Shown here: piece by piece, positions 35,497 to 43,176 of the stretch
Numbering within the stretch: position 1 is the stretch's first letter
How the letters are laid out: each line of letters starts with the position of its first letter
Assembly (NCBI RefSeq): GCF_022347785.1
Contig: NZ_JAKRGA010000001.1
Location: forward strand, 248,001 to 312,000
Direction of reading: 5' to 3'
Length of the DNA stretch: 64,000 bases
From: Psychrobium sp. MM17-31
Lineage (GTDB): Bacteria > Pseudomonadota > Gammaproteobacteria > Enterobacterales > Psychrobiaceae
Notes under the pieces: model-generated
Databases searched by the model: none
Seen by the model: the letters and a program-made list of their open reading frames with translations, nothing else
What the model was told of the DNA's origin: nothing
Made by a program: the position numbers and the translations under genes

Positions 35497-35520
35497 TTAA
35501 TGTGACGAAAATCACATTAA
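35497..35520. promoter_or_regulatory. CRP-like palindrome upstream of purC
   Basis: TTAATGTGA, 6-base spacer, TCACATTAA: perfect 9-bp arms that contain TGTGA-N6-TCACA, the CRP consensus. Its centre is about 48 bp upstream of the likely purC start point. It overlaps the last codons of the histidine kinase gene, which could instead make it a leftover or a coincidental site. Confidence 0.5.
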
Positions 35521-36848
35521 CAATTTGGCAAGGAAATAGTAGCTATTACGCCTTGTTTATCGTCTCGGTTAACCAGTGTCAATTCACCGCCGTGGTTGCG
35601 AATAATTTGGCGCGATAATACTAGTCCAATGCCACTCCCTGCATTTTTGGTGGTGTAAAACGGAACGAAAATATTGTCCATGTTGCTAATACCATTACCG
35701 TTGTCAGTAATGGTTATTTGTACTTTGTTATCAAATAGCTGCGCGCCAATAGCAATATGACCACTGCTACTTGCGCTTTGATTGGCCTCACACGCATTTT
35801 TCAAAAGATTCACTAACACTTGCTCTAGCTGGCTTTCATCGCCATAGCATTGCCAATGCTCGTCAATGGCATTGACCTCGATGTTGTCAAACAACCGCGC
35901 GCTCGTTGCAATAAGCTGACTTAAACTGATCATCGCCTTTTGCGGCTCAGGCAATTTAGTGAGCTGCTGATAACGTTTAATAAAATCATTAAGGTGCAAC
36001 GAGCGTTCGCTAATTACCGCTAGCCCTTCTTGAAAATCGCTCGGCGCTAATACATCGCTACCCGCAACACTGGCTTGATGCAAAGACTCACTAATCGATG
36101 CAATTGGCGCTAGAGAATTATTGATTTCATGGCTTAATACTCGGAGCAATCGCTGCCATGCACTGCGCTCTTCATCGCGCAAAATATCTTGAATGTCGGT
36201 AATAAAAATCAATCGATGTTTGTTGCCTTGCTCAAAATATTCATCACTATGTAAATACACTTTTTTGCGATTTTGTTTAATTTCAAATTCCACCACTTCG
36301 CGATAGTCTTTAGGTAAAGCGGTTGCCAAACCAAGCATATGAACAGGCGCACCATCTAAACGGCTAAATTTAACGTCAAATAACTGCTCTGCTGCTGGGT
36401 TCATTAGCGAAATGCATTGGTGATGATCAACGGCAACAATGGCGACATCGATATGAGAAATGATTTTATGCAGCAGGATTTGGCGCTCTTTATTCACTAG
36501 ATTTTGCTGCGCCATCGAATCGGCCAATGAATTAAGCAGCTGATTAAATTCGTTAAGGGCACTGTTGCTGCCACGCATTTTAGCCCGCAATGAAAAATCG
36601 CCACTAGTGAGCGATTCCATTAAGTTGGTTGCGGTGCGTAATTGCGCGACAATTAATCTGCGAATTTCGAAAGCGCCAAAAATAACCACAGCGGTGGTGA
36701 GTGAAAGCACAAGCATTTTGAAGTAAATACTAATGTCGATATAAAACAAAGCCACTGTTAATAGTAACAATGGCAGCAAACCTATCAGCAGGCTCAGGCG
36801 CAATAACTTGTTTTCATAACTGGTGCTGTGCTCGGCGGGTTTACTCAC
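35517..36848 (-). CDS. Sensor histidine kinase of the sigma-54-type two-component pair
   Basis: A 443-residue inner-membrane kinase. Two adjacent N-terminal helices (about residues 17-60) with almost no periplasmic loop, a HAMP-like linker (about residues 65-115), a PAS domain (about residues 120-200), then H-box LLRVLSHEINNSLAPI, NLLKNACEAN, DNGNGISNMD and GSGIGLVLSRQII. This SHEIN-type H-box is the NtrB/NtrY class that works with sigma-54 activators. The start is GTG overlapping the stop of the regulator (GTGA), so the two are translationally coupled. Signal probably comes through the membrane or the cytosol. Confidence 0.9.
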   Translation of the reverse strand: MSKPAEHSTSYENKLLRLSLLIGLLPLLLLTVALFYIDISIYFKMLVLSLTTAVVIFGAFEIRRLIVAQLRTATNLMESLTSGDFSLRAKMRGSNSALNEFNQLLNSLADSMAQQNLVNKERQILLHKIISHIDVAIVAVDHHQCISLMNPAAEQLFDVKFSRLDGAPVHMLGLATALPKDYREVVEFEIKQNRKKVYLHSDEYFEQGNKHRLIFITDIQDILRDEERSAWQRLLRVLSHEINNSLAPIASISESLHQASVAGSDVLAPSDFQEGLAVISERSLHLNDFIKRYQQLTKLPEPQKAMISLSQLIATSARLFDNIEVNAIDEHWQCYGDESQLEQVLVNLLKNACEANQSASSSGHIAIGAQLFDNKVQITITDNGNGISNMDNIFVPFYTTKNAGSGIGLVLSRQIIRNHGGELTLVNRDDKQGVIATISLPNC

Positions 36849-38217
36849 AAATTGTATTTCTCTAATCGGCGATAATAGGCGCTTCTACTTAACCCCAAGG
36901 ATTGCGATGTTTCAAGTGCTTTATTATCAAACTTTGCCATGCGCTGTTTGATTAGCGTGCACTCGATATCGTCCAAGGTGCCACTGCTAAAGAGCTGACT
37001 CATGCCCTCATCGTCACTATCGGCTTTGCTTAGACCAAGATCTTGGGCCGAGATTTTTTCGCCAGCACACAAGAATAGAGCGCGCTCTACCATGTGATTT
37101 AACTCGCGCACGTTACCCGGCCAATCGTATTGTTGCATAGCGTCGATGGCTGTTTCATCAAATCCTGCAACGCTCAGTTGATACTTTTGATTGTGTTGAT
37201 CTAAAAAGCTCATTGCCAATGGCAAAATATCATCGACGCGCTCTCGCAGTGGCGGAATGCGAATTTCCACCGTGTTTAAACGATAGAGTAAGTCTTGGCG
37301 AAATTTATTTTCGCTAATCAATTCATCAAGCGGTGAGTTGGTGGCGGAAATTAAACGCACATCCATGGTTTGCGTTTTCGAACTACCCAGCTTCTCAAAC
37401 TCGTGCTCTTCTAGCACCCGTAACAATTTAGCTTGTTGCGATAGTGGAATATTGGCGATTTCATCGAGGAAAATACTGCCTTGCTCTGCCAGTTCAAAGC
37501 GGCCGATGCGATTGTTTTTGGCATCTGTAAAGGCACCTTTTACATGACCAAACATTTCGCTTTCAAAGAGGCTTTCACTAATCGCCCCCATATTCACTGC
37601 TACATATGAATGGTTATGGCGCGGTGAACAACGATGAAGATAATCGGCAAACATGCTTTGCCACAGCCATTTTCGCCGGTGAGCATAATACTCATGTCGC
37701 TCAGGGCTAGCTTTTCTAACTGCGTTAAAAGTTGTTTCATAACAGCTGATTCTGCCACAATATTACAACTTGGTGTCGAGCGTTCATTCGATAACAAGGC
37801 GTTATGCGCTGCTAACTTATTGCCAAGACGGCGTGATTGTTTAAGGCTGATTTGATTTTGTAAAATCGACAATAAGCGCTCGTTACCCCAAGGCTTTTGG
37901 ACAAAATCGCTAGCACCTAACTTCATCACATCAACGGCAATATCAACACTGCTATAACCTGTCATCACCACAATTGGTAATAATTCATCGAGCTTTTTAA
38001 GATCGTTAATTAACGCCATACCTTCTTGGCCCGATGTGGTGTCAGCCTGATAATTTAAGTCAATTAACGCCACATCAAATTCGCGCTTAGTAGCATGCTC
38101 AATCGCCTCATTTGGCGTTTGCGCGACCACAACGTCGAATTGGTGGGTTTTAAGTAACAGTTTTAACGCCATGATGATTTGAACATCGTCATCGGCAATT
38201 AAAATAGAATGAGTCAT
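36845..38217 (-). pseudogene. Sigma-54-dependent response regulator (NtrC class), frameshifted in Walker A
   Basis: Residues 1-120 are a receiver (D9-D10-D11 and phosphoacceptor D53). The reading frame then reaches LTGENGCGK and is lost at a TTT run (37657-37659 on the plus strand; AAA in the coding strand), where one A is missing: GGC-AAA-GC-ATG should read GGC-AAA-AGC-ATG, that is GKSM. The first frame ends at 37600. The rest (from MFADYLHRC at 37654) continues in the other frame: GHVKGAFTDAKNN (sigma-54 contact loop), Walker B SIFLDEIANIP, WPGNVRELNHMVER, and a Fis-type helix-turn-helix (LGLSRSAYYRRLEKY). Restored length 457 residues, normal for the class. Either a true mutation or an error in the read. 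Confidence 0.85.
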
Positions 38218-38297: not shown

Positions 38298-40796
38298 CTA
38301 ATCGTGATGCAAGGCATTACTCGGTTCCATCAGCACAACGCGCCTTGTTGGGATGTAGGTTGCCATCAGCACCATCGCTATAATTAGCGCTGGAATGAGC
38401 ACAAACCCGATGTAATAACTCACTTGGTTCATGACCAAGGTGTCAGTCATCATATCGATAATCCACACTGATAACCCAAGTCCGAATAGTAACCCTAGTG
38501 CTAATTGCACTGCTGCTTGCTTCATAAACAAGCGCATTACCATAGAATCTGTTGCACCAAGGGCGCGGCGCACGCCAATTTCCTGTGTCCGTTGAGTCAC
38601 GCCATTTGACGCCACAGCGTAGATGCCACTCGCCGCTAGGAATACAGCAACCACACCACATAATAAGAAGATTTTACTCACCGCCGATACCAAAATCATC
38701 GGCTGATAAATTAACTCTTCATAAGTTTGTACATGGAATGCGGCGACGCGTGGATCAATCTCAATGATAGACTCGCGCAATGCTTTTTCTGCCAATGCTT
38801 GACGCCCGGTGTAATGCACAGCCACGTTGATACGCGTTGGCGCAAAGGCATCGAACACGTGATACGAGTTATACGACGCACTTGATGAGCGCATCGCCGA
38901 GCCGTGGAAGGTGTCAGATACCACACCAATAATGGTATTCCAATCACCAGTACCACGCGAGTTAACACGACGTACACGTTTACCCACGGCATCGCCATTA
39001 GGGAAAAACTCACGCGCAATAGATTCATTGATAATGATACTTAGCACGCCGGGCTCACTATCACGATAATCAAAATCACGGCCATCTACGATCTTCATAC
39101 CAACCACGTGCCACGAATCACGACTTACAATCTCGTTGTTACTGTATGGGTTTTCGTTGTAAACCTCTGCAGCACGACCTTCTATCTCGAAGTAACTGGT
39201 GCCTTCGCCAGAGCCTGGGAATTGACTCATAAATGCCACACCTTCGACATTTGGCAGCGCTTCCATCTTCTCTTTAAGCTGATAGTAAAAATCTGAACGC
39301 TTAAATCCTGCCTTGCGTTGCTCTTCTTCTGGCGCGTTACGTCCCGGGTGGGCATACGCCAAAATTGGTAACTCAAGACGCGCAGTGATGCGATTGTCAG
39401 TGTCCACTCCATAGTCGGCACGTGCCGATGCATAGCTGGTGTATAACAAGATCGTTGCTATTACTAGTACCACACAAGAAAGCAGAATTTCTGAAATAAC
39501 CAGAGCCTTACTCGCCTGCGCGGCTTTCTTGCCTAACGCACCGCGGGTACCGTCGCGTAAAATTGCGTTAAAGTCCCCCGTTAAGGCGCGCCAAGCGGGG
39601 ATCAAACCAGTAATAGCAATCATAAAGATGACAGTTAACACAAGGGCAATCACAGCATGGCTGTCTAAGGCTAGTGTCCACCAGAATGGTTTTTGCTGAT
39701 CGACAGCATAAGCTGCATCAAACACGCCGTTAGTTATTTCTAATCCCCAGCCAGCCACTAAGATGGCAAAGAAACCGCCAATGACACAGATAAAGATACT
39801 TTCCCACAGCATTTGCCACACTAGGCGCACACGTGGAATACCAAGAGCCACTCGAATCGCAACCTCTTTGATGCGCTCATTAACACGCGCCAGCAACAAG
39901 TTACCTATGTTGATACAAGCAAGCATTAAAATTAGGAACACCACGATAAACATCGCGATAAAGATTGAATAATATTGTGTGATGCTCGCCTTTTTATAAG
40001 GTTGAACACTTAGATATTCACCGTTATCACTAACGCGCCAGATAAAATCTTCAGGAATATCTTGAATGATTAATGGGTTTAAACGCTCAAGCTCTTGCTC
40101 AAATTCACTAAAATCACGTCCTTCTTTTAGCTTCATAAAACCAAGCACCGAACGACCACTACGCTCTACCGCATTAATAAATTCTGGCGGCAGCAATAAC
40201 CATGCTTGCGCCGTCATCGGGAATGCGAAACCTTGTGGCATAACGCCAACCACACGCATTTTCTCGCCTTCGACTGTGAGCAAACTATTAACGACTTTCT
40301 CGTTGCTATCGAAGTAATCACGCCAAATTTCATAACTCAACATCACCACAGGTTCAGCGCCCTTTTGCTGATCGCTTTCCCTAAAACCGCGGCCGTATAG
40401 TGGCGGTGTCGATGCAAACTCAAAAACATTCCAGCTGACGTAAGATGCATTAAACTTCACGGTGCCAGACTTGCCTTCAATATCTTGAAATAGCGCGGTA
40501 CCGTCTTGATAAAAACCAATGTCATCTACGGCATCGATTTCTTTTTTCACACGCTCTAAATCAAAGGGATCAGCAGGACGACGAAACAGATGATTGTGAT
40601 CGAACTGCGCTTCGATAGCATAAATTGGCTGATCGCCATTAAGCGTCATTGGTTTAAACACCAAGCTATTAAGCATCGAGTAGGTATAAACCGTTAACCC
40701 CAAACCAACCGCGACAATCAAAATACTGGTGAGGGCAAACAACGGCTTTTTCAGCAGCAATCGCGCGGCATATTTAATATCTATCCAAAAAGACAT
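38298..40796 (-). CDS. ABC transporter permease with two MacB/FtsX-type domains
   Basis: An 832-residue inner-membrane protein with about eight membrane helices: one near residue 20, three at about residues 280-410, one near residue 430, and three at about residues 700-825. Large periplasmic domains lie between (about residues 45-270 and 460-695). This doubled layout (MacB_PCD plus FtsX, twice) is the ADOP/MacB-like type where a single chain forms the whole channel. It follows its ATPase by 12 bases. Together with the adaptor it would drive export of a drug, peptide or lipid from the periplasm; substrate unknown. Confidence 0.9.
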   Translation of the reverse strand: MSFWIDIKYAARLLLKKPLFALTSILIVAVGLGLTVYTYSMLNSLVFKPMTLNGDQPIYAIEAQFDHNHLFRRPADPFDLERVKKEIDAVDDIGFYQDGTALFQDIEGKSGTVKFNASYVSWNVFEFASTPPLYGRGFRESDQQKGAEPVVMLSYEIWRDYFDSNEKVVNSLLTVEGEKMRVVGVMPQGFAFPMTAQAWLLLPPEFINAVERSGRSVLGFMKLKEGRDFSEFEQELERLNPLIIQDIPEDFIWRVSDNGEYLSVQPYKKASITQYYSIFIAMFIVVFLILMLACINIGNLLLARVNERIKEVAIRVALGIPRVRLVWQMLWESIFICVIGGFFAILVAGWGLEITNGVFDAAYAVDQQKPFWWTLALDSHAVIALVLTVIFMIAITGLIPAWRALTGDFNAILRDGTRGALGKKAAQASKALVISEILLSCVVLVIATILLYTSYASARADYGVDTDNRITARLELPILAYAHPGRNAPEEEQRKAGFKRSDFYYQLKEKMEALPNVEGVAFMSQFPGSGEGTSYFEIEGRAAEVYNENPYSNNEIVSRDSWHVVGMKIVDGRDFDYRDSEPGVLSIIINESIAREFFPNGDAVGKRVRRVNSRGTGDWNTIIGVVSDTFHGSAMRSSSASYNSYHVFDAFAPTRINVAVHYTGRQALAEKALRESIIEIDPRVAAFHVQTYEELIYQPMILVSAVSKIFLLCGVVAVFLAASGIYAVASNGVTQRTQEIGVRRALGATDSMVMRLFMKQAAVQLALGLLFGLGLSVWIIDMMTDTLVMNQVSYYIGFVLIPALIIAMVLMATYIPTRRVVLMEPSNALHHD

Positions 40797-40808: not shown

Positions 40809-41546
40809 TTACACCGCAATTGCCGACGCGCTGGCAGTTTGCTTGTCAGCAACAATCTTGCCATCGAACACTTCAATCATGCGACTAGCGCGCGCTGCAG
40901 ATGCAGGATCATGCGTCACCATACAAATGGTTACGCCATCTTGGTGCAGCTTATCCAACAGATTCATAACGATTTGCGCATTTTTAGAGTCGAGGTTACC
41001 CGTTGGCTCATCGGCAAGGATGATTGACGGCGTACCCGCCAATGCTCGCGCAATGGCCACGCGCTGCTGCTGACCGCCTGAGAGCTGTGACGGAAAGTGG
41101 CTAGCACGATGGGCCATTTCAACTTTTTCGAGTGACTGAGTGACGCGTTCATTGATTTCGCTAGCAGATAAATCGCCGCGATACGTCAGTGGCAACGCAA
41201 CATTTTCCGCAACGCTTAAATCACTAATGAGATTAAACGATTGGAATACAAAACCAATTTCCTTGTTGCGAATGCGCGCGCGCTCATCGCGTGATAAATC
41301 CGATACATCGTGCCCCGCCAGTTGATATTTGCCTTTGCTAGAGGTGTCGAGTAAGCCAAGTAGTGAGAGCAAAGTTGACTTACCGCACCCCGACGGCCCG
41401 GAGATAGACAGGTACTCACCTTTGTTGATGGTGAGATTAATACCGTTAAGTGCTTGGGTTTCAACTTCATCAGTGTGGAAGATTTTGTTGATGTCCACCA
41501 AGCTCACTAACGCTTGTTCGTTATTATTTGTTGTTTCGTTGCTCAT
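40809..41546 (-). CDS. MacB/LolD-type ABC transporter ATP-binding protein
   Basis: A 245-residue ATPase. Start at ATG 41546 with AAAGGAA 6 bases upstream; the longer reading overlaps the adaptor gene and lacks a ribosome site. Walker A SGPSGCGKST (about residues 46-55), Q-loop VFQSFNLI, signature LSGGQQQRVAIARAL (about residues 147-161), Walker B IILADEPTGNLDS, and H-loop MVTHDP are all intact. It energises the 832-residue permease immediately downstream. Confidence 0.94.
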   Translation of the reverse strand: MSNETTNNNEQALVSLVDINKIFHTDEVETQALNGINLTINKGEYLSISGPSGCGKSTLLSLLGLLDTSSKGKYQLAGHDVSDLSRDERARIRNKEIGFVFQSFNLISDLSVAENVALPLTYRGDLSASEINERVTQSLEKVEMAHRASHFPSQLSGGQQQRVAIARALAGTPSIILADEPTGNLDSKNAQIVMNLLDKLHQDGVTICMVTHDPASAARASRMIEVFDGKIVADKQTASASAIAV

Positions 41547-41562
41547 GATAGTATTCCTTTGC

Positions 41563-42816
41563 TTAGTTAATGCTAACTTTTTGATGTGATTGCCACGCCG
41601 TAACATCAGATACAACGATGCTATCTCCCGGCTTAAGGCCTGATTTAATTTCAATGAATTGATTCGATGTTTGCCCGTAGGTGATATCGCGCTTAACCGC
41701 GTATTGCGATGCTTGATCAAGCACATAGACTTTGCTGGTGGTGTCGTTTTTCGCGAACATTGGGCGTTTTACGTAAAGTGTGTTTTCAATATCGGCAATA
41801 TCGATAACGCCATCGATTGTTAGATCAGGACGCGCCTCAATTGGCAACTCGCCAACCAAATCAACATCCACCTGCACAGTGCCGTTAACCACTGCTGGGT
41901 CAATACGAATAATGTGGCCCTTGATTTCCGAACTGCGGGTATCAACCGTCACCGATTGCGATAACTTTACGTTTTTAATGAGTTTTTCAGGAATGCGCAG
42001 TTCAGCAATAAACAACCCACTACGCGCCAAACGCGCCAAGTTGTTGCCAGGATTAACCTGTTGTCCCAGCTCTAGCGGCATTTCTTGGACAATAGAATCC
42101 ATGCTGGCGCGTACGGTTAGATTGTCCACTTGGGTTTGTGCTCGCGCTAGACTATGGCGTAAACGCTTGAGTTTGGCTTGGTAAGATAAGCGCTGTGCAT
42201 CTAAATTTTCACGGCGCTTGGCAAGGCGCTTCTTCTCTAAGTCCCAACGCTGTTTAAAGCGATTCACTTCGATTTTCGCTTCTTGGTGTTTGATCTTAGA
42301 AATAGCGATAACGCCTTGCGTCAATAATGTATTTTCAGCATCAAATGTCAACTTAGCGCGTTCGTAATTGAGCTTCTCGTTAAGCACTACGGTTTCTTGA
42401 TCCAACAGTTGAGACTCAAGCGATACTTCCAGCGCCGTTGTTTCCGCTTCCATTTCTTCAAGCTGCCACTGGAAATCTTCCATCTGTTGCACTAACTGCG
42501 GATTTGAAAGCTCTAAGATCACATCACCCTTTTTAACCACCGCGCCAGCTTTGGTAACAATGCGTTCTACGCGACCAGCAACATCTGTCGCCAACCAGCG
42601 AATATCTTTCGACGCCAAAACGCCCGTGCCGCGCACACGAACTTTCATATCGCCTTGTTCAACCGTCGCCACCAAAAGCGCATCGCGATCTACCACATAA
42701 GAGGCGTTACTAGGCTTGAAAACAAACGCCAACGTACTAAGGGCTACTACACCGATAGCGCCCACCATTAGCAGTGGTTTGCGTTTTGATTTTTTCTTAT
42801 CTCTAACAATATCCAT
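41563..42816 (-). CDS. HlyD/MacA-type periplasmic adaptor of the ABC exporter
   Basis: A 417-residue protein with one N-terminal membrane helix (LLMVGAIGVVALSTLAFVF, about residues 13-31). A barrel-sandwich (lipoyl) half at about residues 50-110 (VKVRGTGVLAS, AGAVVKKGDVILELSN), a long coiled-coil hairpin (about residues 110-235), and the second half RASMDSIVQEMPLELGQQVNPG follow, then a beta-barrel domain. I choose ATG 42816. The reading can be extended to 42921, but those bases contain the sigma-54 promoter. First gene of the exporter operon. Confidence 0.88.
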   Translation of the reverse strand: MDIVRDKKKSKRKPLLMVGAIGVVALSTLAFVFKPSNASYVVDRDALLVATVEQGDMKVRVRGTGVLASKDIRWLATDVAGRVERIVTKAGAVVKKGDVILELSNPQLVQQMEDFQWQLEEMEAETTALEVSLESQLLDQETVVLNEKLNYERAKLTFDAENTLLTQGVIAISKIKHQEAKIEVNRFKQRWDLEKKRLAKRRENLDAQRLSYQAKLKRLRHSLARAQTQVDNLTVRASMDSIVQEMPLELGQQVNPGNNLARLARSGLFIAELRIPEKLIKNVKLSQSVTVDTRSSEIKGHIIRIDPAVVNGTVQVDVDLVGELPIEARPDLTIDGVIDIADIENTLYVKRPMFAKNDTTSKVYVLDQASQYAVKRDITYGQTSNQFIEIKSGLKPGDSIVVSDVTAWQSHQKVSIN

Positions 42817-42853
42817 TTTCGGCTCACTTTTAACCTTGAATATTGATGACATT

Positions 42854-42869
42854 ACAAGGGCTGTGCCAA
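42854..42869 (-). promoter_or_regulatory. Sigma-54 (-24/-12) promoter of the exporter operon
   Basis: On the minus strand TTGGCACAGCCCTTGT: GG at 42867-42866 and GT at 42855-42854 with exactly 10 bases between. It matches the TGGCAC-N5-TTGC consensus except for GT in place of GC at -12. Expected start about 42842, giving a leader of about 26 bases before the adaptor ATG. Confidence 0.7.
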
Positions 42870-42932
42870 AACAAATAAACACAATAAAAACAAAACCTTG
42901 GATAAATAAAAGGAAAATCAATAGATAGTCTA

Positions 42933-42980
42933 TCTCGAAAATGGGACGAATTCTCGAAATCGAAATCCCACAAATGGGAC
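42933..42980. promoter_or_regulatory. Two operator-like repeats (upstream activating sites) before the sigma-54 promoter
   Basis: Site 1 is an inverted repeat TCCCA-CAAA-TGGGA (42966-42979). Site 2, TCTCG-AAAA-TGGGA (about 42933-42946), matches the same pattern with one degenerate arm. Both carry AAATGGGAC; the centres are 33 bp apart (three helical turns) and about 95-130 bp upstream of the predicted start, which is a common position for NtrC-class activators. Confidence 0.6.
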
Positions 42981-43099
42981 GCGGAAAATTAGCTGATGAA
43001 TAAATTGTAAACAGTTAGGCGAGGACGAAAGGTTACTACTTGAAATCTAAGAATTAGCGGGTAGTATTAAGCGTGATTTTATCCCCTAAAATCATCAGT

Positions 43100-43176
43100 C
43101 GGAACGTAGCGCAGCTTGGTAGCGCACTTGTCTGGGGGACAAGTGGTCGCAGGTTCAAATCCTGTCGTTCCGACCA
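43100..43176 (+). tRNA. tRNA-Pro, anticodon GGG
   Basis: A 77-base cloverleaf: acceptor CGGAACG/CGTTCCG, D-stem GCGC, anticodon stem CTTGT/ACAAG around loop CTGGGGG (anticodon GGG), T-arm GCAGGTTCAAATCCTGT, discriminator A and encoded CCA. It lies alone between the exporter and bet loci. Confidence 0.97.

Follow-up and report, generated by a model that had tools for sequence, protein, structure and literature searches.

A candidate sigma-54 promoter with paired upstream sites precedes a MacB-type exporter operon that encodes an NtrC-type regulator in Psychrobium sp. MM17-31

The window, a 64,000-nucleotide stretch of DNA from Psychrobium sp. MM17-31, carries on its minus strand an operon with the gene order adaptor, ABC ATPase, duplicated MacB/FtsX-type permease, NtrC-type regulator and histidine kinase. 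The HlyD/MacA-type periplasmic adaptor (41563-42816), identified by the Pfam families HlyD_D23 and HlyD_3, is followed by a MacB/LolD-type ABC ATPase (40809-41546; Pfam ABC_tran matched on a longer frame, with the start at 41546 assumed) and by an ADOP-like duplicated permease (38298-40796) with two MacB_PCD and two FtsX stretches, which over its full length scored 561.3 bits against TIGR03434 (ADOP duplicated permease) and did not reach the cut-off of 622.3. The response regulator is split into two overlapping frames (36845-38217) that break at the Walker A motif. The N-terminal part (37600-38217; Pfam Response_reg) contains the receiver and the start of the AAA+ domain, and the C-terminal part (36845-37654; Pfam Sigma54_activat, AAA_lid_14 and HTH_8) contains the AAA+ domain with the GAFTDA loop and a Fis-type HTH, such that receiver, AAA+ and HTH are all present, over two frames rather than in one chain. 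A preliminary description of this DNA had placed the regulator at the end of the locus; it lies near the end, but the last gene encodes the histidine kinase (35517-36848; Pfam HATPase_c, with HisKA below the cut-off), whose two membrane helices have hardly any periplasmic loop between them. The genome also encodes rpoN (PF04552 match, 240.7 bits).

Upstream of the adaptor gene, we found a near-consensus sigma-54 (-24/-12) promoter element, TTGGCACAGCCCTTGTA, on the minus strand at 42853-42869. As the preliminary description had proposed, GG (42867-42866) and GT (42855-42854) are separated by exactly 10 bases, with GT and not GC at -12. With GG set as -25/-24, this geometry predicts a transcription start (+1) near 42842 on the minus strand, 26 nt 5´ of the adaptor ATG at 42816. 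A search of the whole genome for TTGGCACN5TTGYA returned two matches compared to one for the reversed-pattern control, and the motif taken alone thus is only weakly significant; the case for the predicted promoter rests on its position and conservation. The only other exact match in the genome lies at G000:C1:446503-446519 (L198).

Further upstream, a repeat finder detected two 17-nt copies, at 42932-42948 and 42965-42981, that are 82% identical and 33 bp apart start to start, in agreement with the two copies at this distance reported previously. Read as 18-bp sequences on the minus strand, in the register with C as the sixth and G as the thirteenth base, these correspond to a proximal putative activator site, CGTCCCATTTTCGAGATA (42931-42948), and a distal one, CGTCCCATTTGTGGGATT (42964-42981). 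The earlier term "inverted repeat" fits the distal copy, a good palindrome, much better than the proximal copy, which is only partly palindromic. The site centers are 72.5 bp (proximal) and 105.5 bp (distal) above the -24 GG, corresponding to positions near -97 and -130, and the earlier placement 100-130 bp further up therefore holds if counted from the start point but not from the promoter. A blind two-palindrome scan of the window did not pick the 33-bp pair and returned another at 25 bp; the window pair derives from the direct-repeat finder and the forced register. The spaced pattern AATGGGAC-N15-45-AATGGGAC has one match in the 4.17-Mb genome and none in the control, and a genome-wide count of single sites with two mismatches allowed was uninformative (304+317 matches compared to 414+444 in the control). 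A third exact genomic match to the site, at G000:C3:715142-715156 (L047:8643), was discarded as a chance occurrence, given a single palindrome and no -24/-12 element visible by eye before the next ATG; this TCCC-N6-GGGA palindrome lies ~55 bp ahead of an ATG within a frame of 736 aa. We also noted a third site-like stretch, GATTTCGATTTCGAGAAT, between the two sites of the window (42950-42967, minus strand), which is not conserved in the two nearest relatives.

These two relatives, G006 and G007, encode adaptors 90% and 89% identical to that of the window and were aligned with it as a three-genome footprint. Sites and promoter were invariant at 42 of 53 positions compared to 28 of 115 in the surrounding spacer, with 14 of 18 invariant positions in each site and 14 of 17 in the promoter element, but only 4 of 15 between the sites, 18 of 61 from the proximal site to the promoter and 6 of 39 above the distal site. 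We consider this alignment the strongest evidence local to the window. That chance produced both a sequence resembling a promoter and a coincidental repeat, as the genome-wide motif counts (two exact look-alikes, one in the control) and the blind scan of the window might by themselves allow, appears extremely improbable against these islands of conservation and the recurrence, described below, of the same arrangement with fixed spacing across related loci. The 5´ leader, including the start codon, is invariant at 24 of 36 positions in the three genomes, and residues M1, D2 and R5 of the adaptor read from 42816 are invariant in an alignment with four relatives, both of which support the earlier choice of the shorter translation start (ATG 42816). 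Conservation extends toward tRNA-Pro(GGG) (43100-43176, plus strand; ARAGORN), the divergent neighbor that closes the intergenic stretch and lies outside the circuit, with 28 of 40 positions kept at 43060-43021 and 25 of 40 at 43100-43061. Given that a TTGAAA-16-TAGTAT match within 43021-43100 is aimed at the tRNA, these blocks probably are the tRNA's own promoter region. At locus L042 (G022), a second strong -24/-12-like element, TGGCACGTCCCTTGGA, is present further upstream, ~242 bp before the adaptor ATG.

The regulator is encoded as an intact 458-aa protein in the close relative G007 (L040:5065-6441, seen by BLAST match), and the G006 copy continues past the Walker A break point until its contig ends. 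In G006, the permease lies in two abutting frames (L039:3428-6006). Since the regulator frame is broken in the window, the promoter would be either silent or driven by another activator in this genome, where the circuit may be orphaned. The split at Walker A, together with a proximal site less palindromic than the distal one, could mean that the promoter is a decaying relic with a dead regulator and an operon that is no longer induced. This seems unlikely to us: the sites and promoter closely match those of the relatives, the kinase, permease and adaptor frames are open, and the one break may have arisen recently or reflect faulty assembly. The genome also encodes four further cassette-type regulators, one of which might have taken over this promoter. 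Their promoters, however, carry other repeats (GGTCCGATATCGGAC, GTTCGG-, GTGTCCG- and GTTCGC-types), and we view such a takeover as improbable. Each of the four paralogous cassettes (L043-L046) is preceded by a -24/-12 element of its own, and they visibly differ in their repeats, which suggests that cross-talk between the paralogous cassettes of this genome is probably low.

To place the locus in a wider context, genome contigs were scanned with the adaptor alignment; 161 stretches were confirmed, and the best 80 loci were kept. These best 80 of 161 include Colwellia, Thalassotalea, Pseudoalteromonas, Vibrio, Paraglaciecola, Lysobacter, Xanthomonas, Dyella, Edaphobacter and others, and many were assembled from metagenomes. 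An NtrC-type regulator was found downstream in 52 of the 80 (partial in two of the 52). For each locus, the best sigma-54 score within 350 nt above the adaptor match was compared with scores for 697 control regions upstream of other plus-strand frames >200 aa at the same loci, some of which are inside operons or before non-genes. Scores of at least 13 were obtained for 13 of the 52 regulator-bearing loci and none of the controls, and scores of at least 12.5 for 27 of 52 loci and 4 of 697 controls, though the contrast narrowed at lower cut-offs (at least 12, 35/52 compared to 16/697; at least 11, 48/52 compared to 121/697), and kinship of the loci inflates all counts. Promoter and neighboring regulator are not strictly linked, as scores were below 12 in 17 of the 52 regulator-bearing loci and at least 12.5 in 11 of 28 loci for which no regulator lay in reach, several of which end at a contig edge or show additional permeases up to the end of the retrieved stretch. 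Several promoter offsets (for example, -165 and -179) take the beginning of the tblastn match, not the ATG, as their zero point, the L067 promoter was re-placed by eye at -53, and the promoters of ten added loci, the window and nine others, were placed by hand.

The preliminary description had suggested a search for the same spaced repeats before orthologous exporters. In a blind scan for two similar palindromes, 30 of the 62 loci had their best pair 32-34 bp apart (in 100 single-base shuffles, 4.5 loci on average and at most 9), and another 10 had it 20-21 bp apart (3.5 on average and at most 8 in the shuffles). Among regulator-bearing loci from Colwellia, Thalassotalea, Pseudoalteromonas, Vibrio and their kin, the pair was at 31-34 bp in 30 of 35, the exceptions being L059, L060, L079, L086 and L109; for Xanthomonadales-type loci, the corresponding number was 0 of 11, with 5 of 11 at 20-23 bp. 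Tested locus by locus, pairs reached p≤0.01 in 12 and p≤0.05 in 23 of the 52 loci with a regulator, in 0 and 1 of the 28 without, and in 5 and 8 of 120 control regions. As the blind scan missed the pair in the window and its two closest relatives, pairs were placed there by forced spacing (31-35 or 44-45 bp), which was also used for L079, L086 and L109; no credible pair was obtained by this means in L086, the half-sites of which were still counted in the SRSGY class below. The distances from proximal site to promoter cluster near 59-62, 69-76 and 78-85 bp; two further values are 49.5 and 52.5 bp. Across the 45 of 62 loci with a blind pair at 20-23 or 31-34 bp, this distance was phased with Rayleigh R=0.62 at a 10.5-bp period (nominal p 3e-8), 0.55 at 10.0 bp and 0.645 at 11.0 bp, all values inflated by relatedness. 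Taken together, the elements themselves, their conservation in the two nearest relatives and their recurrence at related loci confirm the elements first described. The proposal that these form an activator-enhancer-promoter set controlling its own exporter is supported by this comparative recurrence for the family but not for this cell, where the regulator is in two frames.

Site sequences vary with the recognition helix of the neighboring regulator. Regulators with SRSAF or SRSAY helices are associated mostly with TCCC half-sites (C at position 5 in 67 of 72 and 11 of 16 half-sites, respectively), those with SRSGY or SRSGF mostly with TGTxTC (T at position 5 in 18 of 28 and 10 of 16), those with SRSSY mostly with TCTCGA or TTTCGA, and those with TRQSL mostly with GTCCG. 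L080 breaks this pattern, combining an SRSAF helix with mainly SRSG-like sites. We do not claim a one-residue code in which the half-site is set by whether the recognition helix has Ala, Gly or Ser; L080 contradicts it, and clade structure is a confounder. In a Mantel test on 38 of 41 eligible loci (the three others had no full-length regulator or kinase), site distance correlated with regulator-HTH distance at r=0.727, with slightly lower values for AAA (0.714), adaptor (0.711), kinase (0.697) and receiver (0.679). The HTH correlation was 0.32-0.40 after removal of any one other part (0.32 given the adaptor), and adaptor, receiver, AAA and kinase kept 0.19-0.29 after removal of the HTH. At the level of sequence comparison, these values show that sites and cassette are co-inherited and are compatible with, but do not prove, an HTH-specific coevolution with the sites.

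The regulators depart from GAFTGA in the loop that contacts sigma-54. Asp was present in all 50 full-length regulators scanned (L059-L138; GAFTDA in 43, GAYTDA in 7), and the window regulator has GAFTDA, not GAFTGA. Nine other activator-domain proteins are encoded in the same genome, and the motif found in seven of these was GAFTGA (six) or GAFSGA (one); a split-permease subfamily (L045, L046, L057, L058) instead has GAYTGA, GAFTGA, GSYTGI and GAYTGL. In the available text of PMC10714721, a pull-down with a GAFTDA regulator did not find RpoN, and whether the G-to-D change explains this failure is left undecided, while the available text of PMC4641369 lists GAFTDA and GAYTDA among variants that would be compatible with activation. 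The association of their operons with sigma-54 promoters argues that GAFTDA/GAYTDA regulators do work with sigma-54.

The cassette kinases also have a distinctive layout of two N-terminal helices with 1-11 residues in between (about one residue in the window, as judged by a crude method). An automatic rule for two helices with nearly no loop was passed by 43 of 47 cassette kinases; of the four misses, two have the same pair plus a later third hydrophobic stretch, and two have a second helix under the threshold. By contrast, the layout was found in none of the 28 non-cassette HATPase proteins examined from the genome of the window, a control for which 30 loci were fetched out of 56 matches and in which 12 of the 28 proteins are cut by locus ends. 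Given no periplasmic sensing domain, the kinase most likely reads something within the membrane, and we tentatively propose, at somewhat short of even confidence, the co-encoded permease as the best candidate for its input, by analogy to Bce modules. It is also possible, if rather doubtful, that the promoter and sites are the same but that the kinase senses a cytoplasmic ligand through a PAS-like region rather than the transporter. Weak PAS matches were found in 18 of 25 kinases scanned (E≤0.01), and the window kinase comes close to the cut-off (21.9 bits compared to 22.6). This match is nevertheless partial (residues 126-157) and below the cut-off, PAS domains also occur in kinases with input elsewhere, and a cytoplasmic input would leave aside the two-helix layout that sets the cassette kinases apart.

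Overall, the DNA ahead of the adaptor gene very probably controls a self-regulating exporter cassette driven by its own NtrC-type regulator via sigma-54. What was observed of this circuit comprises the elements, how they are conserved, recur and are spaced, the order of the genes and the presence of rpoN; to this we add binding, activation and autoregulation as inferred steps. Dimers of the phosphorylated regulator would bind each site, centered near -97 and -130, and, as the sites are about three turns apart, would assemble on one helix face. The AAA+ ring, brought in by looping, would then open the sigma-54 RNA polymerase complex at the -24/-12 promoter, and the joint production of exporter and regulator would give a positive loop.

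At the E. coli glnAp2 promoter, two NtrC sites approximately three helical turns apart are located ~100-140 bp upstream of a -24/-12 promoter, and NtrC is a phosphorylated response regulator. The arrangement in the window resembles these enhancers, with two sites about three turns apart upstream of a -24/-12 promoter. Unlike glnAp2, however, the gene for the putative activator lies within the operon under its apparent control, the site sequences differ for each paralog, and the target is an exporter. A second parallel is with BceAB-BceRS of Firmicutes and related modules. BceAB are MacB homologs with a co-evolved two-component system in which the kinase cannot sense without the transporter, according to the available text of PMC5985334, and the related BraS is described as two helices with a small loop in that of PMC10295115. 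As far as these texts go, the two systems have in common a MacB-superfamily permease and an adjoining two-component system in one locus, a two-helix kinase with a tiny loop, and presumed self-induction. They differ in that the locus described here has an NtrC-type regulator with a sigma-54 promoter, a MacA-like adaptor and a duplicated MacB-type permease; where Bce systems are defined by no adaptor and a ten-helix BceB permease, an adaptor is present here, together with two MacB_PCD and two FtsX stretches. MacABCsm-MacRS of Stenotrophomonas maltophilia likewise combines a MacAB-type exporter with a neighboring two-component system in a gammaproteobacterium, but its two-component genes are divergent, and a sigma-54 promoter is not mentioned in the available text (PMC10295115).

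The bare link between sigma-54 and the COG0577 permease family is already known, as a 2025 genome survey (PMC12316311) reports, in its available text, an enrichment of predicted sigma-54 promoters at these permeases in gammaproteobacteria and calls this the first evidence. A regulator and kinase belonging to the cassette, paired sites, their spacing and their divergence are not described in that text. Term counts in the available main text of PMC3162934 were zero for "ABC transporter", "exporter", "MacB" and "permease", and a literature search that covered few subscription journals found no paper on the cassette, the paired sites or the kinase layout.

We put forward, as a conjecture that may well not hold, that self-sensing exporters are widespread in Gram-negative bacteria, with the pump signaling to an intramembrane kinase, the kinase to a GAFTDA-type NtrC regulator and the regulator through sigma-54 back to the pump, and with duplicated cassettes insulated by the co-divergence of regulator and enhancer. 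If this is true, such exporters would be the sigma-54, tripartite-pump counterpart of the Firmicutes Bce modules. The window itself adds one case to a large natural collection of sigma-54 circuits running in parallel, which share one promoter type, one activator family and a recurrent helical spacing across dozens of diverged enhancer pairs. With this collection, three questions become open to experiment: in what way duplication is followed by joint change in a Fis-type activator and its sites, whether activators with GAFTDA can function with sigma-54 (the point that the available text of PMC10714721 leaves undecided for its regulator), and whether MacB-type pumps of Gram-negative bacteria can serve as sensors for the two-component systems that belong to them.

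With respect to substrate, we favor an exporter of peptide-like or other natural products that is induced when needed. The darobactin exporter DarBCD is the best named match for the ATPase and the second best for the adaptor, but membership was rejected since both proteins fall far below the NCBIfam equivalog cut-offs (95.7 bits for the adaptor, cut-off 450; 254.8 bits for the ATPase, cut-off 375). Assignment of L085 as a darobactin-type locus also was unsupported; the one neighbor scanned is a polyketide-synthase-like protein. L085, L093 and L094 have exporters with neither regulator genes nor a good sigma-54 element (scores of 8.5, 10 and 10), and these adjoin polyketide or non-ribosomal peptide synthase genes.
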